Source: Cenococcum geophilum 1.58 (Eukaryota > Ascomycota > Dothideomycetes > Gloniales > Gloniaceae). Taken from it: DNA of 64,000 nt. Position 1 is the first letter of the stretch, and the number at the start of each line of letters is the position of its first letter. The notes under the pieces were generated by a model. The model was not told the DNA's origin. It was given only the letters and a program-made list of their open reading frames with translations, and made no database searches. Where the stretch lies: the NCBI GenBank assembly GCA_001692895.1, contig KV748209.1, positions 310,001-374,000 on the forward strand, in the 5' to 3' direction. Position numbers and translations under genes: made by a program. Shown here piece after piece: positions 2,827-53,865 of the stretch.

Positions 2827-2893
2827 GGCGCTAGTACTAAGCGAGCCAATAGTGATTTTCTATCCTGGGGATGGAAAATCCTAATTAGTTGGC
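2827..2893 (+). repeat. Hairpin module M1, copy a
   Basis: A 67-bp sequence from GGCGCTAGTACTAAGCGAGC to CTAATTAGTTGGC with a near-palindromic core, GATTTTCTATCC opposite GGATGGAAAATC, bracketed by GCCAAT and ATTRG. The same module is found at 34455-34527, 44535-44607, 50976-51048 and 53793-53865. It lies between the pol stop and the 3' LTR. The sister element at 8629-14961 lacks it at the matching place (about 14620), where it reads straight into TTGGCAGAAG. A TTGGC repeat lies on each side, but TTGGC may belong to the module itself. Confidence 0.85.
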
Positions 2894-3063
2894 AGAAGTT
2901 AGGTTCGGCAGAATTTGGCAGAATTCGGTAACATGGCAGAATTTGGCAGAATTTGGTAATATAGCAAAATTTAGCAGAAAGTCGCTATTGAGTATATATT
3001 ACGAGTAGTCTAAAAGACTTAACTTTAAAATATAAATTAGCCTTCTTTTTAGAGTTGCTTTAG

Positions 3064-3233
3064 TGTTGGAATATTAATCACGTGACGTAGTCATGGGACT
3101 ACGAAGCGAGACTAACTGTCTGACCTTAGAGCAACCCCTTTCTTTTAGACAATAATTAACTACCAACTTCAACACCGCATACGTACCACTACGAGTGATA
3201 TTCGTGCACGTTGATAAAGCGAGTATACCGACA
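3064..3233 (+). repeat. 3' LTR of C1
   Basis: 170 bp beginning TGTTGGAATA and ending TATACCGACA, with TG...CA ends in short inverted repeat. It is nearly the same as the LTRs at 8629-8799 and 14791-14961, the differences being almost all transitions. It contains ATCACGTGAC, so a CACGTG box is kept here. Confidence 0.95.
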
Positions 3234-4140
3234 AAAAGAGAATCCGTTTTTTTATTACTAAGTTCCTATAAACCTTATTCTATAAGCTTCTACTCCTTAA
3301 AATAGACCTTCTTACGAACTTTCTTAAGACGAAGTAGATGGGTAGACGCCGTAATATAAGTATCTAGGGCCTTCTATTCCGTGTTCTAAGAATACTTAAG
3401 CTTTATAAGGGCCTATACTAGGTTACTATTAAGCTTTATAGTAGCAAATTAAATATAAAACCCTATAATAAATTACTTAGGGAACTTAGAGACTATTAAG
3501 AGTTATAGGACGCGTATACTTAGTATTAGAAGTAGAGCGAACATCGTAAGATAATTAAACGTTTACTCTAGTATACTCTAAATAGAAAGAGGGCTATTAA
3601 GATAAAGGACTCGCTAATATAATATAAACTAATCCCTCTTTCGAACAACAAGAATACGGAGATGGTATTACTTCACTAAGTAATAATATTATAGTAATAG
3701 TGCGGGTATAACGTTGCGCGTATAAAGAAGAAGAGGCTTTAGGTATTATAAGTAACGATATTAACTAAATTAATTAGATGGATATTACACCTCTAATAAA
3801 TAACTTAGAGATACTAGGTATCTTTAAGGATAAAAATAAAGAGGAGGGAGATAGTATTACAAACGCTTTAAGTATAATATTATAACTACTTAAAAAAGAG
3901 TTAAAGGAAGCTAGTTAGTTAATATAAGCACAGTCTAGGATAAAACCTATAGAACTATATAACGAGGAATAGTAGCTAAGGTTATATAACGTGCTACGTA
4001 TTAAATAAGAGGAATAAGAGGAACTTACGTACCTTACGTATAATACGTATATTATATATAAAGAGGATTTTATAGGAGTACGGTTGTATATTTAAGGACC
4101 CTTAGTCCCTACCTAAATAGTTCCTTCCTTGTAGTAATTC
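3234..4140 (+). pseudogene. Unidentified RIP-damaged coding relic
   Basis: No family recognised. With TAA/TAG read as Gln, long stretches of the + strand have protein-like content. One frame around 3460-3650 is rich in Arg, Lys and Gln (LNRKRAIKI-like). Another frame from about 3620 to 4090 is acidic and helical (KDKNKEEGDS-like, then LLKKELKEA). The change of frame near 3630 suggests at least one indel. The basic part loosely recalls the C-terminal part of fungal DUF3435 recombinase relatives, but no diagnostic residues were seen, so this is only a guess. Confidence 0.3.
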
Positions 4141-4270
4141 TTAGAATATAATTAGAGTTAATTTGTTAGGCAACCACTCTACCAGTTATTATTACGTTGT
4201 TAACTTACTTGCAATACCTATATACCTAGCCCATTAACAAGTCCACCGTAGTTCCTGCTATAAGGCTCCG
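4141..4270. repeat. Dispersed repeat shared with 30375-30530
   Basis: Shares a TAGAATATAATT word, then CTATATACCTAGCCC and then a GTAGTTCCTGCTATAAGG stretch with 30375-30530, in the same order and orientation but with a different length between blocks. This points to two diverged copies of one unidentified element or duplicated segment. Confidence 0.6.
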
Positions 4271-4756
4271 TTATATATATGCTAAGGCTATATATTATAT
4301 ATAGGATATTTTAATAACCTAGTTTACTAATTTTATTATTGTATATACCCCGTATATGCCTAGCATATAACCTTTTATTTATTAAATACTTTAAATTCTA
4401 TTAAAATAAATATTAAAGTAGTTAAATAGCTTTTAGTAAGTATATATAATATATTAGTAGTGTATATGCTAAGTATATACTATAGCGTAGCTTACCTTAT
4501 ATAAAATATAAAGGGAATACCTTAAAGGGCAGTATAAGTTAATAGATTGTATATGCTAGGCATATGCTTAACATATACTAGGCATATATAGCTATAATCT
4601 TTTTTAAATTTTTTAAATATTATATTAAAAGTGTCTGTATATGCCCTGTATATGCCAGGCATATATAGGGTATATACGCTAGGATATTTGCAATTTAAGA
4701 TTAATAACTGTGCATTTTCTATTTTATTTAAATTGCATATGCATTGTATATGCGTA
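4271..4756. repeat. AT-rich tract with iterated TATATGCC/GGCATATA palindromes
   Basis: No gene seen. The tract contains at least eight copies or variants of a palindromic word: GTATATGCCTAGCATATA near 4352, GTATATGCTAAGTATATA near 4460, GTATATGCTAGGCATATG and CATATACTAGGCATATA near 4550-4590, GTATATGCCCTGTATATGCC then AGGCATATATAGGGTATATA near 4635-4670, and GCATATGCATTGTATATGC near 4735-4752. Such iterated short palindromes resemble subterminal transposase-binding sites or operator clusters, but no matching element end was identified. Confidence 0.55.
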
Positions 4757-4861
4757 GGCTAAGCGTGGTCCAAAGCTGAGCGTGGTCCAGGGTTAAATTT
4801 GAAGTTCGGACTACGTTGAACTTCTGGACCACGCCGAGCTTTTTTCGGACCACGCCGAGCT
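4755..4861. repeat. Fold-back with paired GCGTGGTCC repeats
   Basis: Two direct copies of GAGCGTGGTCC-like sequence on the left (about 4762 and 4779) face two GGACCACGCCGAGCT copies on the right (about 4826 and 4847), with a GAAGTTC/GAACTTC pair inside. The unit could fold into a long stem. It looks like a small inverted-repeat element or the end of a DNA transposon. No coding sequence is present. Confidence 0.55.
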
Positions 4862-4881
4862 GTGAGCCCGCTTCTGGCAGG

Positions 4882-9262: not shown

Positions 9263-12200
9263 ATAACTATAGCATAAATAGAGGAAGAATAGGCCGTAAT
9301 AGCCAGCAAATACGGATATAGAATTAATATAGATAAGGCTACAAAGGATAAACTAGTAGAGTTTATATAGATAACAATATACCTAATATAAGACCTTACG
9401 GACAATAACTTATAGACTATCTTTTAAGAGCAGTTTAAAGGGTTTATAGTAGAGAACTTTAAAAAGATACGTATAGATACTAGATCTAAGCTATAAAAAC
9501 ATCTCCTTAAAGGAGGTATATACGTAGGCAAATCTAGCAACAGAGTTACTATATCTAAACTGTTATTTAAAGTTATATAATAAGAAGAGCTACACTAATA
9601 GATAGATAAGGAGATTGTAGCAACTATTAAGGAGTTAGTAAAACCACTAGCTATAAGAGCACTGCGAAATAGGTTAAACTACACTTATAACGGTCTATCG
9701 GCTTAGCGTATAGCTATAGTTATAATACTACCTAGGTCTAGTACGCAAACACCTATATTTATACCTTTAGCCCCACCACTAACTGCTCCGCTAATTCTAC
9801 CAGCTACTTTAATTGCTGCACTACTAGCTACTCCAATTGCTGCACTACCAGCTACTCCAATTACTACCCCCACTACCCCTACTACCCCTCTCGGTCCTTA
9901 ATCCCCCAATTATAAATAAATCCACGCTCTTATTAACCAACTACTATAGCTAAGAGAGCAGCAACTATAGCAGCTATAGTAACTGCAGCAGCCATATATA
10001 TATATACTACCTAAACTAGCCGTACCTAGTATAGAGTAAGGACCTAGGCAAGGACCTAGATATAATAAGGAGGTAGCTATAATTATAAAGATCTATATAG
10101 ACGACCAAAAGTACGATAGAGTTAGTAATAGCTTTAACTTTAAGTTAACTATCTTCTATAACATCTGTAAGAGATTTAGCTTACCACTAGAAGGCTACGT
10201 AGTAGCATTCCCTAGTATACTAAAGGGGCTTACTCAGGACCACTACTACAATAGTAACCTCAAGTTAAGACCTTTTACTAAAGCCTACAACTATATACGA
10301 CAATTCTTTAAAGGGCCGGAATACTACCGCAAAAACCTTATAGAGTGGAATAGTATAACCCTCTAAGGAGTTATAGACGAGAACCCTAATAAGTTAATCT
10401 ATTAGAACTTCTAACTACTTATAAATAAGCTGCTAAAGCAACGTTATAGACTATACCTAGACTTTTATATAAACCGCATTCTTATAAATAAGTTGGTTAC
10501 TACTTACCAGGGAGTACTAGTATGCCATATTACTATCTCTAACCCTTTAGAAAACCTCTCTTAGTTAATTAGTAAGCTATAATCCTCTATTATTGCGTAG
10601 GAAAAAGAATACCCCCTATAGGCCTTAATAAGATTGTCTTACCAAGCTTTTTTTACGGATTAACGCTACTACTAAAATAACCAGAATTGAGACCGAAACA
10701 CTAATTGCTACGGCAGTAATCGCCCCTATAGAACTAACGGCAGACTAAAGGCTAAGTGCTATATCTATAAGAAGGAGGACTGCTATTTGTGGAAATATAT
10801 AGATAAGGAGCGTAATTAATCTAGAGACGACTATAAGAGACGCTTTATTAATATTAAAGGCCGTAATAAGGGCAACTTTAACAACTACTTTAAATAATAC
10901 GTCGCCGTCTATGAAAGAGATAAAGAGGATAACTTAGACTTTAAAGCCTATATATACGACGCTAATAACTCTAGGAGCGATACTAGAGAACTTAACGATA
11001 GTTCTACCTACATTACTACCTTTAGAATACTTACTATAGAGGAAGTAACCTCTATAAGCGTAGAGCTAGCTAATAAGGCTTATATATACCTACTTACGGC
11101 TTTAAAACTTACTACGGAGTCTACTACGGAACCTTGTACGGAGACTAACCTATTTGCCTACAGTATAGCTACAGCTATAGCGTTATAATACACCTTAACG
11201 GTCTTTATAGGAATTATAATTAATACGGGTGCTTTGCGTAAGTCTATGGCTGGCTACGGCTAATTCTAAGCACTATAGGCTGTAGATAAGTCTATAAGTC
11301 TTAACACGTTAACTAAGGGCTAAGTAACTATCTAATTTGGGATTGAAGCCTCTACGTCCATCGGAACTATAGACGTTAACAGCCCTATAGGTAAGGTATA
11401 ATTCTATATCATTAAAGTAGATACTTCTTTTCTACTTTACTTAGCAGATATAGATAAACTCTATATTAAATATAATAACCTAAAGGACGTTATCATCACT
11501 CGTACTAAAAAGGTGCTAGTAGTTAGACAATTTGGCCACCCATTTCTCTTATAGAGCTTCTCCTTGCAGTCTTATTTAGTCGAGTCTTTTAATATAAACC
11601 CTTACTACTTAACTAACGTAGAACTACGACGTCTATACTATTAATTTGGTTACCCGTTAGTTAATAAACTATAAAAGCTTCTTAATAAGGCCGGCTACGG
11701 CTATAACACTAATAGATCTGCTATTAAAGAACTAACTAGACTCTGCTACTACTGCTAAAAGTTTAGCAGATCTCTAGGTAGATTCCGCTTTACCCTATAA
11801 AACAACATTAATTTTAATTATAATATTATCGTCAACATTATATATATTAGCGGCTCCCCCCTATTATACGTAGTTAATAAAGCAATTTAATTTTAAGCCG
11901 GTAGATAGCTATAAGATATTAGCGCCAAGCATACTTAGAACATTCTACGAATATACTAGATTAACAGCTATTTAGGACTACTAGACTTAATTACCACAGA
12001 CGCTAAAAATAACTTTATTAGTAAGGAGTTTAAGCACTACGCTGCTACTATAGGAGCAACCATAAAGTTAGTCCTAGTCGAATTACACAATTCTATTAGA
12101 ATGGTAGAACGCTACTATAGTCCGCTACAACAAGCCTACTAAATTATTATAACTGAAATCCCTAAAATTAGCAAGGAGATGGCCCTATAAATGGCCTTTA

Positions 12201-14603
12201 AAGCTATTAATAACACGGCTAGCCTAGAAGGCCTAGTCCCTACACTCCTAGTCTTTAGAGCCTACCCCCAAATAGTTAAATTGGACGCGCTATCGCCTTT
12301 AGTTATATAGCGAGCTGCGGCTATTAAGAAAGTAATAGTAGAAATCCAAAAGCTATAAGCTAAACGATAGATTACTAACGCTCTTAATATACGAAATGGA
12401 CTATAAACTAATGCTGTTTATAGCCTCCTACCTAGTTCGCCTGTCTTAGTCTGGAGAGAAGGTAATACTAGCTAGAGTGGTTATTGGGACGGACTATATA
12501 TACTACTTACCGTTAACGGTAAGACCTATACCGTAAAGCTACTAAATAGGCCTATAACCTTCCGCTCTATAGTTATAAAACCTTACCTACTAGACCTATA
12601 AGACTTAGTTAAACTACAAGAGTCTGTTAAATTAGATAAACTAGTACCTTTACTAGCTAAACCTTAATTATTACCTAAAGCTAAACTATAGCTACTACTA
12701 AAGCAAGGCAGAGGTCGCCCCCGCAAATACCTATTACTTACGGCTATTATAGACACGGCTGTTACGGACATTATAATAAATACGGGCGCTCTTATAGGTA
12801 ATATTACGAATATCGCTAATATCGCTATCTACTTACAGGACAATAATACCGCAGATACGGCTAATACTACTATTTACTTATAGAACGATGGCAACACCTA
12901 ATTTAGCGCTTTACAATAAAAGGAGGTTATAGGCCTACTTAAGAAAGGCGTCTTTAAGATTATTAAGCTATACGACATACTAAAGGGGGTTAGACTCTTT
13001 AATTTACAGTTTATTAATAAGATTAAGAATAAGAGAACCGATAAAGCCTTTAAGAAATCGCGACTTATTATATAGGCCTATAATAATTTAGAGAAAGAGC
13101 TAGTCCTTATTTAGTCACCAATAATTTAATAAGTTAGCCAGCGGCTAATTCTCTATATCGCTCCTATGCTACTATAGACACAACTTTACCTTTAAGATAT
13201 CTTATAAGCCTGCGTCCAGTCTACTATAAACCTAAACCGCGAGTTCTATGTATAACCGCCATATAAGTTAAATAAACAATTAGGAATTAATACGGACTCC
13301 GTTCTAAAGGTTATAAAGCTACTTTATAGAGTACCTAAAGCTAGAAACTACTAGTTTAAGATATACCATTTATACTACATTAATTAGCTGCGAATAGACC
13401 AGTCCATGTATAACCCTTACTTACTTTATAGTAACAAACCTTTCGGAATTATTGGCCTATAGACTAATAATATACTATTCCTTATAAATAATATCTTTGT
13501 AGAGGCTAAATAAAGCAAACTATATAAGGCTAAATTTATAGCTAAGGAGCGAGAGTAACTAACCGCTAATATACTAATTAAGTTTAATAGAGGACTTATT
13601 TAATTAATATAAGACGGAAGTATTACGCTAACGTAAAGGCGCCAGTGTAAGAACCTTAGTATAGTTAATATTACGCTAGTAGATAGCACTAGCTCCAGAG
13701 GAGTTACGCGTGGCTTACTTACGCTAAAGGACCAGTATATCGCTTAACGCGCTAGAGGAGCCTATATTGCCTCAGTCTATTAGCCAGAGGCTTTATTTAA
13801 CTTATCCTCTACTGCCCAGGTAATTAATCCTAAGGAGGTAAACGCGAAGGAGTTAAATAAGCGCCTAAGTTGGCAGATTTAGAACTTATATAGAGGTCTT
13901 AAGTTTGTTAAATTGGAGGCTAAGACCCTATATCGCCTTAGTCTGTCAGCCAAAGGCTTTATTTAACTTATTCTTTACTGCCCAGGTAATTAATCCTAAG
14001 GAGGTAGACGCGAAGGAGTTAAATAAGCGCCTAAGTTGGTAGATTCAGAACTTACACAGAGGTCTTAAGTTTGTTAAATTGGAGGCCAAGACCCTATAGC
14101 TCTTAGTCTTTACGGACGCTTCGTTTACTAATAATAAGGACCTCTCTTCGCAAATTGGCTATATTATTATACTAACTGACGCAACTAAGGAGGCCAATAT
14201 CGTCCATTGGAGCTTAATTAAGTATAAAAAAGTTACTAGAAGCGTTCTGGCTTCTAAACTCTATAGAATAGCTTACGACTTTAATATTACCGTCGCTATT
14301 AAGTCTACAATAGACAAGGTCCTACAGATTAACCTCCCGCTTATGCTTTGCACCAATTCTAAGTCGCTATACGACTATCTCATACAACTTGGAACCACAC
14401 AAGAGAAGCGATTAATAATTAATGTAATGTGCCTACAATAAGCTTACGAACGTCGGCAGATCATAGAGGTTAAATAGATCGATGGTGAAGCTAACCCTGC
14501 GGACGTAATAACTAAGGGGAAGCCTTGTATCGCTCTATAGCGACTTATTAATATAAACCAAGTTAATATATAGGCTGTAGGTTGGGTAGAACGTAAGGAG
14601 TAA
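9263..14603 (+). pseudogene. Copia C2 gag-pol polyprotein, RIP-mutated
   Basis: Frame read with stops as former Gln. Gag begins near 9263-9269, where ATA may replace an ATG. A zinc-knuckle-like CYIYKKEDCYLWK is near 10755-10790. The protease has INTGALRKS near 11220-11240 (D[TS]GA in intact copies, here Asp to Asn). The integrase starts at LRRLYYQFGYPLVNKL (11620-11670). YISGSP and ITTDAKNNFISKEF follow. RT has FSALQQKEVIGLL (12900-12940), and its active site is damaged at GLQTNNILFL (13455-13485), both Asp to Asn. RNase H has FTDASFTNNKDLSS (14110-14150). The frame is broken by a 166-bp duplication at 13763-14094. The stop is probably TAA at 14601-14603. Not functional. Confidence 0.92.
13763..14094 (+). 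repeat. 166-bp tandem duplication inside C2 pol
   Basis: 13763-13928 and 13929-14094 are two copies of the same RT/RNase H connection segment (shared CTTTATTTAACTTAT, GCCCAGGTAATTAATCCTAA, GCGCCTAAGTTGG and others). 166 is not a multiple of three, so it shifts the frame. The copies differ by independent transitions, so the duplication is older than at least part of the RIP damage. C1 has a single copy. Confidence 0.92.
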
Positions 14604-14790
14604 TAGAAGGTGGTTTGTGGGTTATGTGATTGGCAGAAGATGGCAGAATTCGGCAACATAATAGAATTTGGCAGAATTCGGCAACTTAGTAGAATTTAGC
14701 AGAAAATCGTTATTATATATACGCTACGTATAGTCTAGAAGTAGACTTAACTTTAGAGTGTAGATTAGCCTCTTTTTAGAGTTGCTCTAG

Positions 14791-14961
14791 TGTCGGAACG
14801 TTAATTACGTAATATGGTTACGAGACCACGGAGCGAGGTTAACTAATCTAACCTTAGAGCAACCCCTTACTTCTAGACAACAATTAACTACCAACTTTAA
14901 CACCGCATACGTACCACTACGAGTGATATTCGTGCATGTTGATAAAGCGAGTATACCGACA
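14791..14961 (+). repeat. 3' LTR of C2
   Basis: Begins TGTCGGAACG and ends TATACCGACA. It is followed by the target duplication ATAAT at 14962-14966. The CACGTG of the 5' copy has become TACGTA here, a typical RIP product. Confidence 0.95.
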
Positions 14962-29962: not shown

Positions 29963-29987
29963 NNNNNNNNNNNNNNNNNNNNNNNNN
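29963..29987. other. Assembly gap, 25 N
   Basis: 25 consecutive N. The texture changes from AT-rich satellite-like DNA to RIP'd transposon DNA across it, so the two sides may not be truly adjacent at this distance. Confidence 0.99.
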
Positions 29988-34527: not shown

Positions 34528-34561
34528 TGGTTGGAGTTAGGGTCTGCAGACTATTATACTC

Positions 34562-39838: not shown

Positions 39839-40044
39839 TATTAGTTATATAAGGGTGATATTACGTAGCTACAGTTTATAGCTAGTATAATGTTATATAT
39901 TCGATTAATTCTAGGAAAGGGTAAGAGAGGGTAAGGAGCTTAAGGCTCCTCGCTACGCTAGTGCCGCGGCAACACGTAATAGCAACTTACCATCACGTGA
40001 CGGCAAATTGCCGTATATAACGGCAATTTGCCTTATTTCTAACA
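39839..40044 (-). repeat. 5' LTR of C5
   Basis: Minus-strand TGTTAGAAATAAGGC to ATAACTAATA. The last CA is now TA. It is the same variant as 34073-34278. Confidence 0.95.
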
Positions 40045-43000
40045 CTTCCTCTACTTTAGTTAACTAGTAAGCCTTTACTATAAGAAGTTATAAATTTAAT
40101 AAAGGTATATTTAGATAAAGAGAAGAAGTTTAAAGAAGAACTATATAATATACTTAGAGTAAAACTATAGGTCTTTTATAACTGTTATAATAAGGTTAAA
40201 ATTTAATGCTATTAGTACTATTACGCTTTCTCTATTATATTAAAGGGATAAGTAGTAATATTCTATTACGACTATATTATAGGTAAAAACTATAACTTTA
40301 ATATAATACTTTAGCTTACTAAAGCCTACTTTAAGACTAATAAAAATTACTAACTTTATATATCTAAATAGCGGGAGACTACGTTTTAGAGAATTATTAC
40401 TTTTAACCTAATAAAAACTTATTTAAAGTGCCTTTAATTACTCTTTAATAAACTTTAGAAAATCTAATATAGCCTTACTAAAACTTACTAAAATAAGAAT
40501 AGCCTAAGGGACTAGGTTATTTTAGTATGCTATAGCGTTTTTAAGTATAACTTAGCGCTATATAAATTTATAAATATGTTTAAAGAAGTATATACTAAGC
40601 TACGCTTTATTATAGGTACTATAATATAAATATAAGAATCTTAATAGTTCTATACTAAAAACTCTACCTAATTAAGTATTCCTAACTAATATAATTATAA
40701 CTAGACTAATTAAATATATAGTGGCTATAGTAGGGAATATAGAAGAGGGTATAATTAATATTAACTATAAGGTAATTATAGAGGTCCTTATAGAGGTTTA
40801 TTTTAAAATAATTACTAAAAGAAATATTATATTTATAAAAAGCTAAATTACTAGTTAACTAAATACTTTTTTAATAAGTAAAAAGAGGTATATAATAAGT
40901 TCTATTAGAGTATAAGAAATATTAGAAATTATAAGGTTACTATAGCCTACTTTTAAAGTATTTTAGTTTAATATAAAGGCGTAGAAGATCTTAAGGGTAA
41001 GGTTAATAAGACTAAATAGCTCCTTATAAATATAGAAATTAAAAACTACTTACCTAACTAATACTTTACTAAGTATAGTAAGGTAAATAGTATATAAACC
41101 GTTGCTGTTCTTAATAACTAATCTACGCTATATTCTATTATAAAGTTAAATATCTTTAATAAGCTAAAGGAGAGCTCTATATTTTCCTTTAATAATAGAT
41201 ACTTAGTAAATATCTTTTATAGTATTATACTGGATACTAAAGCTATAGAAGTATTTATAGTAGGAGAACCTTAAGTTTAAGCCCTTTAGTAACTTAATAG
41301 CTTTATTTAGATTAACTATTTAATAGTAAGCTAATATATAATTAATTTTAGTAAAGGTACTATAATCTCTCTTAGTATAATTAGGGTTTAAACCCCCTTA
41401 GGGTATATTAGTTTTTACGTTATTCCTATAAATACTTTATTTTTATTTTATATTAAAGATATAAATAAGTTAGGTATTAGGCTTAATAACCTTAAGAATA
41501 TACTTATTTAGGGAGATAATTAGGTGCCTATTATATATAAGTAGGGTTACCCCTAGTTACTCCTTTATTAACTAAAAAAGAGTATTACTTAAAGCTACTT
41601 AACTAAGTTAAAATTACGCTAACTATACTATTGTTTTAGCCACTTATCTATTTATTAATTACTTAGGGTTCTTTAGCGAGTAGGCTATAAAGTTAAAGTT
41701 AAGGTAATTAAGCATCTTATAAAGTATTATTATTACTACTAAATAAACTAAAAATCCCCTAGCTAATTTAAGTTTACCCTTAAGGATAACTATAACTTTA
41801 ACTTCTATATTATTATTAATATTATATATCTTAGCGGTAAGCTAGTGCTCTAAGTTATTAACTTCTTAACCTTTTTTTAAGCCGCGCGTTTTTTAAAAGA
41901 TATATTAGCTAAAAATATATAAAAGACCCTTTAGTTATACTAGATTAATATCTATTTAGAACCCCCTAATTAAATTATCTATAATATAGAAAAGAACTTC
42001 TTATTTATAAAGTTTTAATAATAGATAAAGGTAATAACAATTAAGGTTAAGGAAGTCCCTATTAAGGCATATAATAGTATTAAAAAAGTAGAATAATATT
42101 ATATGTTATTACACTGCGTATATAAGATTATCTCTTTAAAACTAAAGAACGCTAGTAAAAAACTTACCTTATAAATAGCTATTAAAGCTATTAATAATTC
42201 CGCTGGCCTAGATAGACTTATACCTATATTACTAGTCTTTAGCGCCTACCCTTAAATAACTAATAATTCTTTATTATCTCCCTTTATTATATAATAAGCT
42301 AAGGCTATTTATAAGGTAATAAAGAAGGTATAATATCTCTATACTATACGCTAGGTTAATAATATACTAAGAATAAGAAATAGCCTAAATACCTTAACTA
42401 TGCTTAATCTGCTACTTTAGTCTAAGGTATATATATAGCATAAAAAGGGAGGATAGTTAGGCCTATACTAACTTATTATAATTAATAGTTAAACTTATAC
42501 TATTTATATGCCTTATAGACCTACTTAATTCCATTTAACTGTTATTAAGCTTTATTATAAAAATAATAATTTTAAGCCTTTATAGGATGCCCTAGAAGAT
42601 ATCCTAGAAGAGAACTATAATTAATATACTCTAAAAGGCGACTATAATCCTAATATAATTATAGTAGATACGCTATAACTATAACGCAGTAGAGGTTACC
42701 TAAAGGGATTATAAAATCGCTAATATCTTATTAATTTTAAAGAATAATTTATTGCTGCTATTAAAAATAGAGTTAAGTTATTAATGGCCTTTATAATAGC
42801 TAAGGAGAAGGCTAACTTTAANCTNNNAAAANAGCTNTAAAAGGAAGGTNNTATTATAACNNNNNNANCTCCTTTNTAAGTATNTAATAANNAGNAGATN
42901 AATAGTCTTATTATAAGAGGAGTCTTTAAATTTAAGAAGTATAACCCTACTAAGTTTAATAGAGTTTGTATCTTTAAGCTAAGAATAGTTAATAAGATTA

Positions 43001-44415
43001 AGGGCAAAGCTATTAACGCCCTATTTAAGAAATTAAGGCTTATTATCTAAGGCTATAATAATAATAGTAAGGAGGTAATTCTTATATAGTCTCCTATAAT
43101 TTAATAAGCTAATTAGTAAGTTATTATTACGCTAGCTCCCTCCTTAATAAAGAATAGAATAGCGGTTTATTTATAAGATATTACTTAAGCCTATACCTAA
43201 TTAGAGATGCACCTTTAGCGCTTAATATTAGTATACCTTTTAGAGTAAATTCGCTACTAGTATCCTAAAGATATAATTATAGTTATGCTTAAGCCATTAT
43301 ATAGAATTATAGAGGTAGAAATTTACTAATAGGCTACCTATAGCAAGCACTATAAAGAGAAGCTTTTAATAACTACTTCTATATTTAATTCCTACTTCCT
43401 TATTATAACTATAGGAACTTTATTTAGAATTATTGGTATATAAACTAATAATATAATTATCTTAGGAGATAACTAATTCTTAGCTCTTAAAGAAGATAAG
43501 CTAGTAAAGGCAAATTTTATAATAAAGCTAAAGGAAAAGCTTAGTTTAATAATACTATTACTCTTTAATAAATGTATCCTCTTCCTAAATAAGGATTCTA
43601 TTACTCTACGCTAGAAGGGTTAAGGTAAAAAGATTAATATTATTAACACTAATTCTCTAAAGTAAGGATATATAGAGTAACGCGCTTATAGAGCTTATAT
43701 TACTTCTATCTATTAACCTAAGGCTTTATTTAATTTCTCTATTGCCACCTAATACTAAAAACTAACTAAGGATAATATCCTTACCCTAAATAAGCGTCTT
43801 TTTTAGCAAATAAACTATTTTAATTAGGGACTACTTTATATACCTATTAATCTTCCTACCACTAAGCTCTTTATATTTATTAATAGATTATTTATAAATA
43901 ATAAAGATTTTAGCTCCTAGTTAGGATATAAGATTATTATTATAAATAAATTTACTAGAGAGAATAACTTTATAATTTATAGCAATCTTATTTATTAGAG
44001 CTTAACTAAAAGTAAGCGCGTTACCTAAAGTGTTTTAGCGTTAGAGATATATAAAATAGTTAGCGGAGTTAATATAGTAATTATAATTGGAACTACCCTA
44101 AAGATAATTATAGATCGACTTAAACTTCCTATTATCCCTATAATTATATACACTAACTTATATTCCCTTTATAAGTATTTAGTTAAGCTTAGTACTATAA
44201 AGGAGAAGCGCCTTATAATTAATATTATAGTACTTTAGCAATCCTATAAGCGTTAAGAACTCTTTAAGATTTAATAAATTAATAGCTAAGATAACCTAGT
44301 AGATATAATAACAAAGGCGAACCTAAATAAGGCACTAAAGACGTTTATTAATATAAATACTCTACGTATATAAGTTAAAGGTTAGGTTAAAAGGGAGTCC
44401 TTAGAAATTTCTTAG
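40045..44415 (+). pseudogene. Copia C6 gag-pol polyprotein, main piece
   Basis: Continues the frame of 33531-34072. A basic gag tail with a YYIYKKPNYQLTKYFF zinc-knuckle relic is at about 40827-40875. A protease-like stretch has SIIRVQTPLGYISFYVIP (41370-41430). The integrase starts near 41600, with YLSGKLVLQ (41825-41860) and NSIKKVEQYYMLL (42075-42110). Then come a linker, RT with ALFKKLRLIIQGYNNN (43017-43065) and a damaged active site GIQTNNIIIL (43435-43465), and RNase H with FINRLFINNKDFSSQLG (43875-43930) and IITKANLNKAL (44305-44335). The TAG at 44413-44415 is a likely end. Ambiguous bases cluster at 42822-42900. Confidence 0.9.
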
Positions 44416-44441
44416 TTATATAAGGTCTTAAAATGTCTAGG

Positions 44442-44464
44442 AACTTTAACCGGCAGTTAAAGTT
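44442..44464. repeat. Palindrome M2 in C6
   Basis: AACTTTAACCGGCAGTTAAAGTT with CTAG on the left and ATCTAATTAG on the right. It lies about 27 bp after the pol end. Confidence 0.85.
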
Positions 44465-44534
44465 ATCTAATTAGTTAGATTCTCTTACTAAGACTTTTTA
44501 AAGCATAACATTCTATAAACCCTAACTTAACCTA

Positions 44535-44607
44535 GCTAATTAGGATTTTTCATCCCCGGGATAGAAAATCGCCATTGGCTCGCTTACTACTAGCGCCTTA
44601 GCGGCCC
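44535..44607 (-). repeat. Hairpin module M1, copy c
   Basis: GCTAATTAGGATTTTTCATC to CTTAGCGGCCC, antisense to C6. Core GGATTTTTCATCCCC opposite GGGATAGAAAATC. Confidence 0.85.
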
Positions 44608-44788
44608 TTTAAATAAGATATCTACCTATAACTCCTAAGTAAGAAAGTACTATATGCTAAGAGGCAAATTTTAAAACAGCGAGACTTATATTATAATAGT
44701 AATAGTAAGTAAGGAGGATTAATATTTGCTATACTAGTTAAGCAGTATATATATATATAGATAGCAACTATAAAAGAAGAGTTGCTAG

Positions 44789-45003
44789 TGTTAGGAATAA
44801 AGGTAAGTAGTTACTATATAAGGTAAATTGCCATTACGGGTGGCAAGTTGCCGTTACGTACGGTAAGTTACCGTCACGTATCACCGCGGCAGTAGCGTGG
44901 CGAGGAGCCTTAAGCTCTTTACCCTCCCTAATATATACAAGAATAACAATTATTATACTATCTATAAACCGTAGCTACGTAATATCCCCTTATGTAACCA
45001 ATA
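44789..45003 (+). repeat. 3' LTR of C6
   Basis: TGTTAGGAATAAAGG to TGTAACCAATA, followed by the target duplication TAAAG at 45004-45008. Confidence 0.95.
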
Positions 45004-45091: not shown

Positions 45092-45365
45092 TATAATTAT
45101 ATAATTACAGCACCTATTATACCAAACGCGTGCTTACGCGTTCAGTACACCAGGTACGCGTTTACGCGTTCAGTACACCAACCACTTACTTACACATCTG
45201 GTACACTTATAAAGCACTAACTAATTAGGGGGGAGGTGCATCAGTATATAGACCACGTAGTTTGCTTTATACAATCGACAGTCACCATCTAAACAAGCAT
45301 ATAATACTATATGTATTTCATGCCCGTGGATACAACTCACTCGTGCTATTAAGTTAGTATAAATA
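45092..45365 (+). repeat. 5' LTR of C7
   Basis: It contains four ACGCGT sites within 44 bp (45126, 45136, 45156, 45164), plus TATAAAGCACTAAC as a possible TATA box. It is followed by CTGATCAGTAAGCG, similar to the position after the C2 5' LTR. Confidence 0.88.
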
Positions 45366-45894
45366 CTGATCAGTAAGCGCGCACAGATTAGCAATTACTC
45401 AATACCTCCCCCTAAGCGATATATATAACAGCAACCACCCATTTAAACTCCTAGTATAACCTACTAAAAGGTCAGAAGTTAGGGATTACGGACTTATCTC
45501 TAACTCTATATACTTATTTAAGTCTTAGTACGGTTTACTAGAAGTATAATAGACGCGAATACAGACCTATACGGAACCCCTACCCTTAAACCTCCTTTAA
45601 ACCTCAAACCCCTATTCCTACTATACCTCCCCTAATACCTCTAACCTCTCTCAGACCCCTTACAAAGACCCCTCACCCCTCTATAAACTACTACGGACCT
45701 ATTAATTGCCTTTATAAACCGTTACAAGACCTTATAGAAACCCCTACCCTCCTATAAACCGCTATAGACATTAATCACCCTTACGGACCACTACAAGACC
45801 CTTCTACCCGCTACGTACTACACTATATAGTATAGCAGGTATTAGCAAGCAAGTTAGCGAAGGCCAAAAAAAATAAAGATAAGGAGTTAACGTT
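45366..45894 (+). other. C7 untranslated leader
   Basis: CT-rich leader with repeated TATAAACCGYTAYAGA and ACGGACC words, no coding content. It ends shortly before the gag ATG at 45895. Confidence 0.6.
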
Positions 45895-48800
45895 ATGTCT
45901 ATAAACGACGTTAACGACTATATTAGTTTTAAAATCCTTAAATATAGATACTTTAAGCTTATAAACGACAACCTATAAAAGCAATACTAGGAAAACTTTG
46001 CGGACTTTACAGAAGCTATTTTTAAAGCCTATAACCCCACTACTATCCGTAAACTACGAACCCTCTTACGTAACTAAGGTGTATGGGTTAAAAGGAATAA
46101 ACGAGTTACTGTTATATAGTCCTTATATAATATAATATACGAGAAGGACCAAACGGAATAGACTAAAGAGGAAATTCTAGACCAGTTCTAAGAAACTAAG
46201 GAACTCTTTACTTCTTTTAAACTTAATATAATCGCTAGCCTTATACCTAACCCACTTAACTAAATTCGTCCTATAAACCTAAGCGGCTTTAGACTTAACC
46301 TTATTGGCCAAAATATACCCTACTCTTAAGTTATAGATTATAATACCCCTATAAACTAAAATACGGACCAAATTACCCCTGCTATTTAAGTTATAGATTT
46401 ATAAGCCATATATCCGCAAGCCATAGATCCGTAAGTTATAGATCCGCAACCCACCTAAGTAAAGACCTATAGTAAGGAGCTAGCTAACCTAGCTAAGCTC
46501 TATACTAACGAATCTAAGTATAGCAGTAAAAATAATAATTTTAACTTTAAACTAACTATCTTTACGGACCTCTACTAGAAGGCTAATATTCCTAAATAAG
46601 AGTTTAGCTAAGCCTACTCTACCATACTGCGCGGCCTAGCACTTAACCACTACTACACTAACCTTAAAAGCAACCCCCTTAGTGTCCCCTTTAATAAGCT
46701 ATACAAAGCTACCCATAACTACTTTAAAGGACCGGAATATAGGCGTAATATCCTTACCCAATGGAATATAACTAAGCTACGGACCGTAATTAACAAGAAT
46801 ACCGAAAAATCGACTATAGAGTGTCTGCAAATCCTTATTAAAGACCTCCAGCACCTATAGCACGGCCTTAACGCCAAGCTTTAAACAAACAACTTCCTGC
46901 ACAATAAACTTATTACGGCTTACTAAGAAGTAGAGCCCTATAAGTACGCCTATTATAAGCCTACAGATACCTTAGCTAGCCTTATTAATAACCTATACTC
47001 CTCTATTATAATATACGAAGTCTTAAACCTACTAGGCAGCACTTAAGCCTTTGCTATAGATATTCAATATCTGCAGATAGACTTAGACGTCCACTTTACG
47101 GACCGCCGTTACCGCTAGCAGCACCTATACCGACTAAGTCCCACCTATAACCCCCGCAGTAACTCCTATATAAAAGCATACCCCTATAGACGAATAAGCC
47201 AGAAATGCTTCATATATAGCAAGGAAGGATGTTAGTTTATAAGGCATACCTAAGAAGAACATAATAGGTCTAAGAAGAGATTTAATAAACGAATTAGCCA
47301 GTTTATTTTAGAATATAAAGGAAAGGAAGAAGAGGAGCCCCCTAATAAGTTAATAAAAGCCCTTATAATTAACTTTAACCTAAACAACTAAGAATAGGAG
47401 ACCCTAGAGACGTTCCTAATTACTTTTAGACCTTTTACGGACAGCTAAGCCTTTAATATTACGACCGTATTAGCTAACTATTCCTTTATACACTTAGTTA
47501 CGCCTAAAAACTATTCCATAAGTACCCCTATTATAAACGTTATAGATTATAAGCAGGACCTATTTGCATATATCACCATAAAACGCTATACCCCTAAGGA
47601 ATTCTATAGTATTATAATCGACATAGGCGCCTCTAAGAAGTCTACTACAGGCTACGGATAATACCTCATATATAAGACCACCGCAAATAATAATACGGAC
47701 ATTAATATTACGCAAACTAGGGCCGTAAACGTCCAATTCGGCATTAGCTTAACTGCATTAATTAGATTAGTTGCAGTTAAGACCCCAATTAGCCTAGTTA
47801 ACTTCTATATAGTAAAAGCAGACACCCCTTTCTTACTTTGCCTTACGGACATAGACAGGTTATAGGTTTACTATAACAATATTACGGACACCTTAATCGG
47901 CCCCATAACTGCCCTAAAAAGTAAGCATATTACCCTACTAATTACATAACGATTTAGACACCCGTTCCTTATATAGGGAGAGACTTTACAAACCTACATT
48001 TAAAAATCTTTTAACTATAACCCGTGCTACCTTACCAGTATAGAGATCTACTGTCTATACTGCCATTTCGGCTACTTATTAGCCGAAAAGCTATATAGAG
48101 TCCTTAAACGCTCTAAATACAACAATATTAATAGGAAGGCAGTTAATTACCTAACTAAATACTACTCCTTTTACCAGAAATACGGACGTTCCCCAAGCTA
48201 ATTTAAGTTTACCCTTTATAAGGACCTTAACTTTAACCACTTAGTATACGTAGACATTATATATATTAACGGCAGCCCAGTATTATATATAATTAACGAA
48301 GTAACCCGCTACCAAGCCGCCTATTAGTTGCAAAATATATCTATAAAGCATACTTAGGATACTTTACAGACCTATTAAATTAACACGTACGTTAGACCTC
48401 CTAAGTATATTACCTATAACGCTAGTAAAAACTTTATTAGTAAGGAATTCCAGCAGTATACCACAGCTATAGCTATATCAACAAAAAGTATTCTAGTTAA
48501 GGCGTATTAGTCTATTAAACTTATTAAGTAAGCTCACCTAGCTCTACAGAGAGCTTATTAGATTATTATAGACAAATATAAGAATATCTAAAAGGAACTA
48601 GCTTTATAGATGGCCGTAAAAGCCGTTAATAATACCGCTAGCCCTAACGGACTAGTACCCACCCTCTTAGTTTACGGAGCTTACCTAAGAATAAGTAACC
48701 TAGGCCCCCCTACCCCATCTATTACGGAACGAGCAGCTATAATATAAAAGGCAATAGTTAAAATAGTTAAATTACAGGCTAAACAAACTATTAATAACGC

Positions 48801-50802
48801 CCTATACTACCGCAACAGACCTAATATAACCTTAGTACACAACCTCCTGCTTAACTTTAAAGTCCTTATATAGCGCAAAAGCGGTAGTTAAAATGGACCT
48901 TACTATCTACTAGCCGTAGAAAACGAGACGTGCTGCGTATAGCTTCTTAGCAGGCTAACTAGCTTTAAAAGCACGTCCGTAAAACCCTACTTTCGGCCTA
49001 AAAACACCCATAACGTTAAGCCAAATAAACTAGAAGCAACCGCTAAACCAGACGAACCAAAAACAACTGCCGAATCAGATAAACTGGAGGCACCCTTACT
49101 TACCCTAGAGGTCCCCTAGAAACCCACTAAACCTACTAAACCTACTATAAAGCGTGGCCAAGGGCGCCCCCGTAAGAATTCTATAATAGAGAACCACCTA
49201 ACCTTTACAGGCACATCCGTAAAGCAATCTCCGCCTATAGATATATTAGTTCTAGTATAGGAAACCCCTTTTATAGACTTATAGCGTAAAGAGATTAACG
49301 GACTACTTAAAAAGGGTATCTTTATAATTATAACGGAGAGAGACGTTCCGTAAGGCGTCCGTATATTTAACTTACGCTTTATTAATAAGATTAAACACCC
49401 TAGTACTAATAAAGCCTTTAAGAAATTAAGGCTTATTATATAAGTTTATAATAACCAGGAAAAAGACCTAGTTTTTATATAATCGCCTATAATTTAATAG
49501 GTTAGTTAACGAATTATACTCGTACTTATGCCTAGACTATAGCAAACTAAATCCGTAGCCCTTTACTTACGGGATATTTTATAAGCCTATATATAGTCTA
49601 ATACCTACCTAAGTAGGGATATCTTTATACAACTACTCTATAAGCTTAACCTATAACTAGAAATAATTTTATAGGTTATAAAACCTCTTTATAGAGTACC
49701 AGAAGCCAAAAACTATTAGTTTAAAACATACTAGCAGCACTACGTTAGTAAACTTAAAATAAAACAGTCGACCTACGACCCCTACCTCCTATACAGCCTA
49801 TTAAACGGCCTTAGTATTGTTAGACTCTAAATAGACAATACCCTCTTTTTAGCAGACCGGACATTTATAAACGCTAAAGAGACTAAACTATAAAAAGCTA
49901 AGTTCCTAGTAAAGCCGTAAAAGTAGTTAACTAAGTAAACTCCAATTAAGTTTAACGGAGGCTTAATTACATAAAAAGGCAACTTAATCTAACTAACCTA
50001 GGAACGCCAAGCTTAAAACCTAAAGCTTATTATAGCAAAGCCTATAAACCTTACTAGTTCCTGCGGAGAGACCTATAAAACTATAAATATAAAGGACTAA
50101 TACGCTGCATAGCGTGCAAGAGGCGCCTATATTACTACAGTCTGCCAACCTAAATCTACCTATAACTTATCCTTTGCGGCCTAGGTAGTAGATCTATAAA
50201 AAGAAAATATTAAGCAGCTTAATAAGCGCATTTAGTGGCAAATTGGTAATATGGTGAGGGGACTTACTTTTATACCACTAGACCTAAGTTCCTTTAGCTT
50301 ACTAGTATTTACGGACGCCTCCTTTACTAATAATAAAGACCTATTATTACAAATCAGCTTTATAATTATACTTACGGACCATAATTAGGACGCAAATATA
50401 CTGCACTAGTTTTTAATTAAGTACAAATAAGTAACCCGTATTATACTAGCTTTTAAACTATATATACTAGCTTATAGATTTAATATAACAGCTATAATCA
50501 AATTAACAGTCTAGAAGATTCTATAACTGGAGTAATTACCCCTAGTTTTATACACCGATTTAAAGTCCCTTTACGACTACCTAGTTAAATTAGGTATGAT
50601 ATAAAAGAAGAGGCTTATAGTTGACCTAATATACTTACATTAGGCCTATAAACGATATAAGATTATAAAGGTTAAATAGATTAGTAGTAGAGATAACCTA
50701 GCGGACGCTATAACTAAGGTAAAGCTGTGTTAAACCCTTAAAACCCTAATTAATATAAATAAGCTTAACCTAAAAGTTATAGAATAGGTAGAACGGGACT
50801 AA
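45895..50802 (+). pseudogene. Copia C7 gag-pol polyprotein, RIP-mutated but in one frame
   Basis: ATG 45895 to TAA 50800-50802 is one frame of 1635 codons interrupted only by TAA/TAG at former Gln positions. Gag has SINDVNDYISFKILKYRYF at the start, and a zinc-knuckle relic QKCFIYSKEGC is at 47190-47230. The protease has IIIDIGASKKST at 47615-47650. The integrase region has CHFGYLLAEKL (48062-48095), YINGSPVLYIINEVTRYQ (48260-48320) and ITYNASKNFISKEFQQY (48400-48460), with Asp to Asn changes. A GQGRPRKNS linker is near 49155-49185. RT has ALQRKEINGLLKKG-like sequence near 49275-49315, LYRVPEAKNYQF (49690-49730) and RLQIDNTLFLADRTF (49820-49865), where one active-site Asp is Asn. RNase H has FTDASFTNNKD (50305-50345) and NLADAITKVK (50695-50730). 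Dead, but the best preserved frame in the window. Confidence 0.93.
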
Positions 50803-51254
50803 CGAAGTACCTATGGTACGCCTACGGCCCGTTAAAAGGCCGTACGGCTTATTATACGGCCTATTCTACGGACCGTAAGCTATTAGGTGGAAAAACGGTA
50901 GAAAGCTATAATAGAACTTAGTAGACTTACGTAACCTGCCAAATTCTACTATATTCTGCCATAGTGGTTAAATTAACCAATTACAATTTTCTATACCGGG
51001 CATAAAAAATCGCCATTAGCTCGCTTAGCACTAGCGCCTTAGCGGCCCTTAAAATCTAACTTACTGCCCATCAAAAGGCCGTATAGTTTATTTTACGAAC
51101 CGTAAGCAGGACTTACGGCCAGCTTAAGGTACCGTTTAGAAGGCAGCCTAGACAGTACCTTAGGGGAGATTTCCTATATATTTTCCTTTATATTCTATAG
51201 TTTTATTAAAGCAATTACAGAGGCTGTATACAGGCGGTTTTATTTTTTAAGTAC
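50803..51254 (+). repeat. C7 3' untranslated region with repeated ACGGACCGTAAGC and module M1
   Basis: A stretch GCCCGTTAAAAGGCCGTACG...TACGGACCGTAAGC at about 50827-50880 returns in diverged form at 51066-51108. Module M1 copy d (50976-51048, antisense) lies between the two. Confidence 0.75.
50976..51048 (-). repeat. Hairpin module M1, copy d
   Basis: AACCAATTACAATTTTCTAT to CTTAGCGGCCC. It is the most diverged copy, core ATTTTCTATACCGGGCATAAAAAAT. The outer part GCTCGCTTAGCACTAGCGCC is intact. Confidence 0.82.
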
Positions 51255-51528
51255 TGCTAGTATATAATTACAGCACCTGTTATACTAAACGCGTACTTAC
51301 GCGTTCGGTACACTAGGTACGCGTTTACGCATTTAGTGCACTAACCACTTACTTACGCGTCTGGTGCACTTATAAAGCACTAACTAATTAGGGGGGAGGT
51401 GTATTAGTATATAGACCACGTAGTCTGCTTTATACAATCGACAGTTACTATCTAAACAAGCATATAATACTACATATATTTCGTGCCCGTGGATACAACT
51501 TACTCGTGCTATTAAGTTAGTACGAACA
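51255..51528 (+). repeat. 3' LTR of C7
   Basis: TGCTAGTATATAATTACAG to TAGTACGAACA. It differs from the 5' copy almost only by transitions. One ACGCGT of the four has become ACGCAT. Confidence 0.9.
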
Positions 51529-52620: not shown

Positions 52621-52679
52621 ANNTNTCTTTAGCGNGTTTATTACNCTAATNTNGCGATATTAAGTNTTATCCNTATAGG
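52621..52679. other. Head-to-head LINE junction with ambiguous bases
   Basis: About ten single N calls in 60 bp exactly where minus-strand LINE-B gives way to plus-strand LINE-C. The join may be a consensus or assembly artefact between repeats. Confidence 0.6.
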
Positions 52680-53149
52680 TATATAGTCTAAGATAATTAC
52701 TAGCTTATCTACTTTATAAGGAAAAGAAGGGTAAGTAGTAACCTAGCCTTAATAGTAAATATCTAAGGCTATAAAGAAAAACTAGAAGCTACCCTTAAGG
52801 TCCTAGGGGTTTAGGTAGACTTTAGGTTAAACTAAAATAAGTATATTATATAGACTACTTATAAAAGAGGAGTAGTACTTTTAGCAGTATTATAAATAAC
52901 TACCTTAATATAAGGACCCTCTTTTAAATATATACGCCTATTATATATAGTAGTAATAAGGTTAATAATACTATACAGCTTTTAGATTAAGGGCCTAAGA
53001 CTAAATAGCAAGGTATTAATAAAAAGCTCTTTAGCGCTACTAGCTAAGCTATAAAACTAATACCTATATAGAACTATAGGGGCCTATAGAAGAATACTAC
53101 GCGCTATACTAGAATATAAAGCATTAGTTCTACTACTAGACTTACATAT
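52680..53149 (+). pseudogene. LINE-C, first piece
   Basis: The plus strand reads EKLEATLKVLGVQVDFRLN at about 52772-52835, the same segment as in LINE-A, then the downstream region with YIELQGPIEEYYA-like sequence near 53065-53105. It is interrupted at 53149 by a probable solo LTR. Confidence 0.72.
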
Positions 53150-53387
53150 TATTGAACAGTTAATTAAGGATAAGAACTGTCTATTAAAGAGGGCTCTAGA
53201 AGCTCTTTATATATATTAGGTAAGTCTAGATAAGTAAGTTAAAACAGGTAATAGAAATAAGTAATAAGATATTTAATAAGATATTTAGTTATAAGTTAAG
53301 AGATAACTAAGATATAGTTCGTATAGACGATCTAGGTAATTAGATAGTAGTATAATAGTAGTAAAGAAAGTCCGATCTAGGTCGATA
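53150..53387. repeat. Probable solo LTR in LINE-C
   Basis: A 238-bp segment absent from the matching place in LINE-A (about 31155). Ends TATTGAACAG...GTCGATA are what RIP would make of TGTTGA...TCGACA, an LTR-type inverted pair. Flanks CATAT (53145-53149) and TATAT (53388-53392) could be a 5-bp target duplication with one C-to-T change. It contains TTTATATATATT as a possible TATA box. No other copy is in the window. Confidence 0.6.
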
Positions 53388-53396
53388 TATATTAAC

Positions 53397-53609
53397 TATT
53401 GGTTATATAAGGGGATATTACATAGCTACGGTTCGTAGATGGTATAATAATTGTTGTTCTTGTATATATTAGGGAGGGCGAGGAGCTTAAGGCTCCTCGC
53501 CACGCTACTGCCGCGGCGACACGTAATGGCAACTTACCGCACGTAACGGCAACTTGCCACCTATAATGGCAATTTACCTTATATAGTAACTACTTGCCTT
53601 TATTCCTAA
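53397..53609 (-). repeat. 3' LTR of C8
   Basis: Minus-strand TGTTAGGAATAAAGG to TATAACCAATA, with GGCAAGTTGCC palindromes and the AGGAGCCTTAAGCTCCT inverted repeat. Confidence 0.95.
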
Positions 53610-53792
53610 CACTAGCAACTCTTCTTTTATAGTTGCTATCTATATATATATATACCGCTTAACTAGCGTAGTAAATATTAATCCTTTTTACTTACTATTA
53701 CTATTATAATATAAGTCTCGCTGTCCCAAAATTTGCCTCTTAATACGTAGTGCTTTCTTACTTAGGAGTTATAGGTATATATCTTATTTAGA

Positions 53793-53865
53793 GGGCCGCT
53801 AAGGCGCTAGTAATAAGCGAGCTAATAGCGATTTTCTATCCCGGGGATAAAAAATCCTAATTGGC
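53793..53865 (+). repeat. Hairpin module M1, copy e
   Basis: GGGCCGCTAAGGCGCTAGTA to CCTAATTGGC, antisense to C8. It runs directly into palindrome M2. Confidence 0.87.

Follow-up and report, generated by a model that had tools for sequence, protein, structure and literature searches.

A short hairpin module shared by Copia and Gypsy-like LTR elements of Cenococcum geophilum may be the core of an exchanged cis-cassette

Within a stretch of 64,000 nucleotides of Cenococcum geophilum DNA, analysed as a whole and here called the window, one short hairpin module is found near the 3' ends of Copia elements of different families, in both orientations. Is this module inherited together with its hosts, does it move by itself, or is it passed between element families and retained? 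A preliminary description had reported five copies, and all five are present where it placed them:

2827..2893, + strand: module copy 1, sense to pol, in the 3' UTR of Copia C1, without the GGGCCGCTAA start; head 2827-2846, hairpin from 2845
34455..34527, + strand: module copy 2, antisense to pol, in the 3' UTR of an A-type Copia; head 34455-34484, hairpin 34483-34527
44535..44607, - strand: module copy 3, antisense to pol, A-type Copia
50976..51048, - strand: module copy 4, antisense to pol, D-type Copia
53793..53865, + strand: module copy 5, antisense to pol, A-type Copia

As had been described, copies 2-5 lie opposite to pol, the C1 copy lies on the same strand as pol, and C2 is without the module. 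The sequence GGCGCTAGTNNTAAGCGAGC matched all five window copies with 0 mismatches, a tolerance of 3 mismatches returned the same five only, and none of 100 shuffles reached 5 matches (mean 0.03). The module begins with a 30-bp head, GGGCCGCTAAGGCGCTAGTnnTAAGCGAGC, which contains a small CGCT/AGCG stem; behind the head lies a hairpin in two parts (6 + 12 bp, CGG loop). The palindrome is bracketed as had been reported, but by YAAT/ATTRG rather than strictly by CCAAT/ATTGG. In module orientation, RNA folding z-scores of copies 1-5 were -3.6, -3.4, -0.8, -1.9 and -1.1; folding is clearly unusual in two copies and weakly so in the other three. In both C1 and the 34-kb element, the 3' LTR lies about 170 bp from the module. 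The shared unit extends beyond the 73 bp first recognised, often from -40 to +90 and in some families from about -140 to +125.

The Copia elements of the window that bear on these copies are as follows:

1..3237, + strand: C1, Copia 3' part with the sense module; LTR ~3064-3237 (from self-alignment and alignment to C2)
11637..14966, + strand: C2, C1 relative without the module; LTR ~14791-14966; GGCAGAATT repeats between pol and LTR
34075..40046, - strand: A-type Copia; 3' LTR ~34075-34281, 5' LTR ~39839-40046; ACTAATTAGT, the first half of its Conserved Hairpin Site, directly after the 5' LTR
40047..45001, + strand: A-type Copia; 3' LTR ~44787-45001
45098..51522, + strand: D-type Copia; LTRs ~45098-45359 and 51261-51522; Conserved Hairpin Site ACTGATCAGT...ACAGATTAG after the 5' LTR
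53396..59399, - strand: A-type Copia; LTRs ~53396-53613 and 59204-59399

Since Pfam gave nothing usable on the degraded Copia pieces or on a hAT-like piece, the assignments to hAT and to Copia RT depend on motifs recognised visually; this includes the RT-like piece of C1 (1257-1445), for which Pfam gave no match. Host LTRs of about 174-262 bp fall inside the range of GalEa-type Ty1/Copia elements (138-311 bp with one outlier of 545, TGT..CA ends, 5-bp target duplication), with ends that are altered, probably by RIP. The palindromic CHSeq1 stands directly after the 5' LTR at 5 of the 5 junctions read (D-type, two A-type, L070 and E-type L071). Identity of the module with this Conserved Hairpin Site was considered and is not supported, given the 3'-end position and the lack of pairing or similarity beyond shuffles: across four families, no pairing between the two was detected (z -0.2 to -0.8, 300 shuffles), and similarity stayed inside the shuffle range (best scores 26 for L031 and 24 for E, vs shuffle maxima of 29 and 27).

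Genome-wide, the head GGCGCTAGTnnTAAGCGAGC has 956 exact matches (reversed control 0); a RIP-tolerant form of the head has 1471 and the hairpin 1251 (controls 0). The contexts are Copia 3' UTRs (both orientations), Copia LTRs and the LTR of a Ty3/Gypsy-like family, so the module does occur outside Copia, a question that the preliminary description had raised. In the first 30 module places listed on contig 1, taken without regard to context, 29 were in or beside LTR-element sequence: 16 antisense and 3 sense in Copia 3' UTRs, 4 in Copia LTRs (two elements, sense), 1 in the Gypsy-like LTR and 5 in Copia-like sequence with no pol in reach, with one place unresolved (L016). The exact head was absent from viral contigs, and its three matches in prokaryote MAGs are attributed to chance because no hairpin follows the head in any of them. 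Among open-licence papers, no title or abstract start was about the module.

The Gypsy-like carrier L081/L082 has a Gypsy-type integrase between an LTR pair, as expected of Ty3/Gypsy, with the names Gypsy and Copia resting partly on motifs read by eye. The Integrase_H2C2 match (E 3.4e-5, 24.3 bits) just missed the curated cutoff of 25.5; a gag knuckle and chromodomain-like pieces were recognised by eye only. The LTR pair forms direct repeats, with the exact target duplication ACTAT read by eye. The Gypsy-like LTR was found in 44 rows, of which the weakest 4 were left out. The remaining 40 include 6 same-strand pairs 5.72-5.75 kb apart, five of them with a Gypsy-type integrase piece between. 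Such a piece lies within 5.2 kb of 21 of the 40 rows, always on the opposite strand, and at 1.3-1.5 or 4.2-4.4 kb in 17 of those 21.

From 72 loci and window stretches with an RNaseH match, 42 entered the first pol tree and 41 the final one; near relatives and duplicates were left out (most of L039-L068, L001 and L069-L071), and L025 was dropped because its cut missed pol. On this Copia tree, the module must have switched orientation at least 4 times; a single sense-oriented clade is rejected (AU p=0.00014). Opposite orientations also occur at matching places in related hosts (L031 vs L017, L002 vs C1). Because of the orientation changes on the tree and of the module in the Gypsy-like LTR, descent with pol fails to explain the module, which bears out the earlier argument that common descent alone is insufficient. 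Between families, pol identity is 0.52-0.66 and module identity 0.75-0.93. For instance, modules of families A and B are 0.92 identical (0.90 within A) and near-identical apart from transitions, and their pol sequences are 55% identical; the two families differ by 0.3% transversions in module positions +20..+62 and by 25% in pol. Module and pol distances show a weak positive correlation over nine groups (Mantel r=0.19, p=0.13). A first module tree seemed to group L017, L023 and L033 with E and D, but three of its rows were unsuitable (C2, L027 and the 53.8-kb copy); the cleaned tree, without C2 and the 53.8-kb copy, gives no decision, and the pol split was not rejected on a module tree too short and with too few columns (AU p 0.12, 0.31, 0.14). 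Exchange of the module between element families is well supported, although the module trees are too short to serve as proof.

C2 could be read as a primitive empty site or as a loss. Because it retains the GGCAGAATT repeats, which in C1 come after the module, and nests among carriers in the pol tree, a primitive empty site is unlikely and C2 most likely lost the module, an alternative that had been named beforehand. In a search with the C2 end, 6 of 40 scored places, C2 included, give a single uninterrupted match that lacks the module. In the remaining 34 the match begins near base 191; some of them have a further match reaching base 148, and in three of these two-piece matches an exact-head module in sense orientation fills the gap, as judged by coordinates only.

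The module core is also more conserved than its surroundings. Relative to the Gypsy copy, transversions number 2/301 in the hairpin part and 44/722 in the flanks of the same unit (Fisher 2e-5), in comparisons that all share one reference, and the apparent conservation is inflated because the module itself served to find many of the loci. An island test on three representatives found by the head alone gave p=0.020, and L088 alone gave p=0.22. The preliminary description had asked for compensatory changes, and these are present as a C-G/G-C swap: in 100 listed hairpins of the 1251, the free stem pair is Watson-Crick in 78 (C-G 52, G-C 14), vs 38 in shuffles (largest 53) that ignore the relatedness of copies. 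Palindrome correction during replication could alternatively produce such covariation, and a change from G-C to A-T can be a double RIP event. Among the same 100 hairpins, no strand bias of wobble pairs, which would be a sign of RNA, was detected (G.T 8 + T.G 2 vs A.C 11 + C.A 1).

Overall, the module is probably (roughly 0.55) the conserved core of an LTR/3'-UTR cis-cassette that is exchanged between families and maintained because selection acts on its head and hairpin, a reading drawn from sequence comparison; the earlier idea of a captured signal such as a 3' end fits best here. The module may travel as a passenger, either with a solo LTR that inserts into the 3' UTR of another element or through recombination between two packaged RNAs. 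The recipient would then retain the module because a structure readable on either strand would be of use, at the 3' end or in U3, for expression or for the handling of RNA. As a first guess, it may be a double-stranded protein-binding site or a cruciform acting as an LTR/3'-end control element, since orientation is indifferent and neither strand has a wobble-pair bias. The occurrence in many families of one large genome, in two otherwise unrelated superfamilies and in either orientation, suggests passage between elements and retention for a useful structure. Only tentatively can this be extended to an orientation-independent cis element of conserved head and hairpin that the machineries of Copia and Gypsy alike, or a host factor common to them, would use, and that would pass horizontally between superfamilies as a kind of mobile 3'-end module and survive even the loss of pol.

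A possible but rather doubtful alternative is that one or a few Gypsy solo LTRs landed in Copia 3' UTRs and were amplified along as inert relics, with similarity due to recent descent and not to function. The near-identity of A and B modules except for transitions would agree with this, and the Gypsy-like LTR is largely preserved in B-type Copias (L083, L085-L088; about -137..+128). A hAT-like element carried along a module-bearing solo LTR with target duplication CTCCT, at 7 places (92-100%). For the Gypsy-like LTR of B-type Copias, a target duplication was also considered and dropped because the CGGGT-like 5-mer never flanks both sides of one copy (one flank in L083, the other in L005). The relic account is opposed by the more conserved core within the same unit, the stem covariation, the presence of the module in Copia LTRs, and L018, L035 and L037, which keep leader and module with no pol in reach.

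It is improbable that the module moves on its own, as a tiny element (fold-back, MITE or SINE) inserting either way round. Its two short hairpins, the 1471 RIP-tolerant heads and the opposite orientations at matching places would suit such an element, but its ends are not constant: shared stretches start anywhere from -140 to 0, end at about +62 to +125 and differ by family. No target duplication of the module itself was seen by eye, contrary to the proposed fold-back, and the two exact duplications read (CTCCT around the solo LTR, ACTAT around the Gypsy-like LTR pair) belong to whole LTRs. The location of 29 of 30 unselected places in or beside LTR-element sequence also speaks against independent movement. 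The head suggestively resembles a tRNA D-arm (CGCT-AGTGGTA-AGCG), but the would-be D-loop GG positions are its free ones; a SINE or tRNA origin seems improbable, with neither Rfam families nor tRNAs (ARAGORN) found in the window. That the module simply descends with Copia 3' ends, now and then being inverted in place or lost, is very improbable: the antisense module in 30/30 family A loci selected by pol, the apparent loss in C2 and the lack of formal rejection by module trees favour it, but the repeated orientation changes, the LTR vs UTR positions, the A and B modules and, for vertical inheritance as sole account, the Gypsy-like carriers oppose it.

Closely related forms of one LTR element are already known to exchange control regions. 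If the exchanged-cassette reading is true, a conserved hairpin cassette shared by Copia and Gypsy-like elements, found either way round and also where no pol is in reach, would allow a direct test of which cis signals LTR elements trade, and the 3'-end needs of fungal GalEa elements, which are without a tRNA primer site, would also become testable. Such a cassette can also lead repeat libraries to merge unrelated families, which is a warning. Solo LTRs and nested LTR insertions account for an LTR piece entering another element, but leave the conserved core and covariation of the module unexplained.

The module resembles the Conserved Hairpin Site in that both are hairpins conserved across distant Copia families within one genome, and its hosts carry ACTAATTAGT or ACTGATCAGT after the 5' LTR as GalEa-type elements do. 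In contrast, that site lies directly after the 5' LTR, replacing the primer binding site, whereas the module, which differs from it in sequence, is found close to the 3' end, in either orientation, and in a Gypsy-like LTR as well. Similarly, s2m is a short hairpin near the 3' end, in RNA-virus 3' UTRs, that is common to unrelated families; its spread by recombination has been proposed and its function is unsettled (PMC10062133). Unlike s2m, the module belongs to fungal LTR retrotransposons, in both orientations and also inside LTRs, and no sequence relation is claimed. The crapaud element of Podospora (RT, RNase H, integrase, chromodomain) is, like the module hosts, a RIP-affected fungal LTR element with modular LTR halves; its description reports LTR variants and proposes recombination between packaged RNAs (PMC10787394). 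In crapaud, exchange is between subfamilies of one element (PMC10787394), whereas the module spans Copia and Gypsy-like elements in both orientations.

The module, a short head followed by a two-part hairpin, is present at all five places in the window named in the preliminary description (2827-2893, 34455-34527, 44535-44607, 50976-51048 and 53793-53865), each matching GGCGCTAGTNNTAAGCGAGC exactly. Allowing up to 3 mismatches yields zero extra matches in the 64 kb, and 100 shuffles average 0.03. The Copia elements delimited by window self-alignment, and the Conserved Hairpin Sites found directly after 5' LTRs, as in published fungal GalEa, are:

1-3237, C1, with a sense module
11637-14966, C2, without the module
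34075-40046, A-type Copia
40047-45001, A-type Copia
45098-51522, D-type Copia
53396-59399, A-type Copia
45364-45390, Conserved Hairpin Site
about 39830-39838, minus strand, Conserved Hairpin Site

Assignment of the hosts to Copia relies on short pieces in which motifs were recognized by eye, together with the Conserved Hairpin Site, a published feature of fungal GalEa Copia, whose share in Cenococcum geophilum is 10.4% (genome 177.57 Mb; PMC5445492). Pfam searches of eight pieces gave nothing usable. The palindrome of the site follows the 5' LTR at 5/5 junctions read (D-type, two A-type, L070 and E-type), a count that excludes B-, C1-, L028- and L080-type junctions. The window also holds a probable solo LTR (8629-8804), a lone copy of the C1/C2 type with identities of 87% and 91%, and two internally repetitive blocks with several frames open (29233-30001 and 60414-61703), inside which fall all 11 stop-to-stop frames of at least 150 aa.

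In the 177.19 Mb searched, the exact head occurs 451+505 times, against a uniform expectation of 0.005 and no occurrence of the reversed control; with RIP-type changes allowed it occurs 715+756 times, and the hairpin pattern alone 629+622 times. The stretch that nearly all carriers have in common spans about -10..+62, numbered from the first G of GGCGCTAG, the exceptions being C1, which starts at 0, and L027, where the hairpin has been lost. Among related families the common stretch widens to -40..+90, and in some of them to about -140..+125. The two free head bases (window 2836-2837, 34474-34475, 44587-44588, 51028-51029 and 53812-53813) are mostly family-specific: family A often has AG and in part TA, D often GC or AC, E often GG, and L031/L034 have CG. 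Such a pattern would suit a dyad site with an uncontacted centre, or else plain marks of lineage.

The element context was sorted by pol direction, LTR type and flank alignment for the first 30 listed places on contig 1 (L009-L038), context not being a criterion. The module lies antisense in a Copia 3' UTR at 16/30 places, sense in a Copia 3' UTR at three (L017, L023 and L033), and sense inside Copia LTRs at four, from two E-type elements, one of which was read whole as L071. One place, L027, is Gypsy-like, as assigned by 1.1 kb in common with L082. Five others (L010, L018, L020, L035 and L037) have Copia-like surroundings with no pol in reach, the matches of L018 and L035 being weak (32 and 60 summed bits). 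In L018, L035 and L037 an A-type 5' leader lies 1.05-1.5 kb behind the module, versus about 4.5-4.7 kb in the window A element, whose pol found no match in the stretch between module and leader. L010 and L020 have an A-type LTR only, and L006 neither A-type LTR nor leader. In the stretches read, these carriers look non-autonomous. The one unassigned place, L016, is near a hAT-like motif seen by eye; at L016:1501-2680 the module lies near a hAT-like piece, and after the module come a long tandem repeat and, about 0.9 kb on, a second hairpin that is inverted and whose head is decayed, possibly a composite or fold-back structure.

The preliminary description had raised the question of whether the module occurs outside Copia elements, and it is indeed present in a Gypsy-like LTR. 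A 268-bp direct repeat is common to L081 and L082; its two copies are 5.75 kb apart, each has ACTAT on its outer side, and the stretch between them encodes an integrase of Gypsy type (match to Integrase_H2C2 at E 3.4e-5, slightly below the cutoff). A search with this LTR, in which the best candidates were scored, gave 44 rows, and the 40 strong ones were used. They include six same-strand pairs 5.72-5.75 kb apart, five of which enclose the integrase piece. This piece lies within 5.2 kb in 21/40 rows, on the strand opposite the module in 21/21, and at 1.3-1.5 or 4.2-4.4 kb in 17/21. The module is thus a regular part of the Gypsy-like LTR, antisense to its genes. Additionally, a solo LTR with the module inside (about 259 bp; L072:151-409), flanked on both sides by CTCCT where read (a 5-bp target duplication), lies ahead of a hAT-like gene. 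The hAT-like element, recognized by eye, was found at seven places (L003, which is the L073 locus, and L074-L079); these copies are 92-100% identical over about 460 bp, and the solo LTR has multiplied along with them. At L080, an LTR of the same type stands beside a Copia pol, with the module antisense (one LTR read).

Orientation is constant within family A, where the module is antisense in 30/30 loci with up to 4 mismatches allowed; these were fetched by pol query, hence unselected for the module, and include the window's own copy. Between related hosts it differs: the antisense carrier L031 and the sense carrier L017 are 82% identical along a 1.8-kb host alignment, and L002 and C1 align at 73-80%, with modules opposite in each pair. 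A tree of 41 RT-RNaseH stretches requires at least four orientation changes and at least two between LTR and UTR placement, and a topology that forces the sense rows into one clade is rejected (AU p=0.00014). On this tree C2 nests with the antisense carriers L083 and L085-L088, and its 3' end is like that of C1, keeping the GGCAGAATT repeats that come after the module there. Module loss, perhaps following 3' end exchange, is the simplest account. Since the module-less end is matched in one piece at six of the places scored, C2 included, C2 represents a small subfamily rather than a single damaged copy.

A and B Copias are 55% identical in pol and 92% in the module core, compared with 90% for the core within A. 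Across all family pairs whose pol identity is 0.52-0.66, identity of the core is 0.75-0.93, the low values involving C1, which is without the first ten bases. Transversions, which RIP cannot make, were counted alone: the difference between A and B is 0.3% in +20..+62 and 25% in pol, and for A versus the L017, L023 and L033 group the figures are 4.0% (module) and 0.9% (pol). Over nine groups the correlation between module and pol distances is weak (Mantel r=0.19, p=0.13), and a formal test of the module versus pol split, for which the module is too short, gave no rejection (AU p 0.12-0.31). Within the unit that also occurs in the Gypsy-like LTR, seven representatives, all against one reference, have 2/301 transversions in the hairpin part and 44/722 in alignable flanks (Fisher 2e-5); three representatives found by head alone give p=0.020, and L088 alone 0.22.

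Compensatory change in the hairpin, which the preliminary description had proposed as a check, was found at two opposite stem positions left free in the search pattern. Among the 100 copies listed of 1251, this pair is Watson-Crick in 78 (2000 shuffles: mean 38, maximum 53) and one transition short of it in the other 22, with C-G and G-C both numerous. A change between these takes two transversions and is therefore not RIP; the covariation fits selection for the stem, and also palindrome correction. No strand bias of wobble pairs was seen in the same 100 hairpins, so the data do not favour RNA over DNA. Part of the D-type copies (window 50976-51048; L022, L030) have the loop GCCCGGY, not GCCGGGY, an inversion of the kind that strand switching at palindromes may produce.

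Overall, a conserved head-plus-hairpin core is common to Copia and Gypsy-like elements, near the 3' end of the element genomes and in both orientations. Its orientation independence and U3/3'-UTR placement tip the balance somewhat toward a putative function as a cruciform or a double-stranded binding site. The module may have moved as a passenger, via solo-LTR insertion or recombination, and may have been retained for a putative cis function. Passenger movement of LTR parts has likewise been proposed for Podospora crapaud (PMC10787394), as has spread by recombination for s2m in RNA viruses (PMC10062133).
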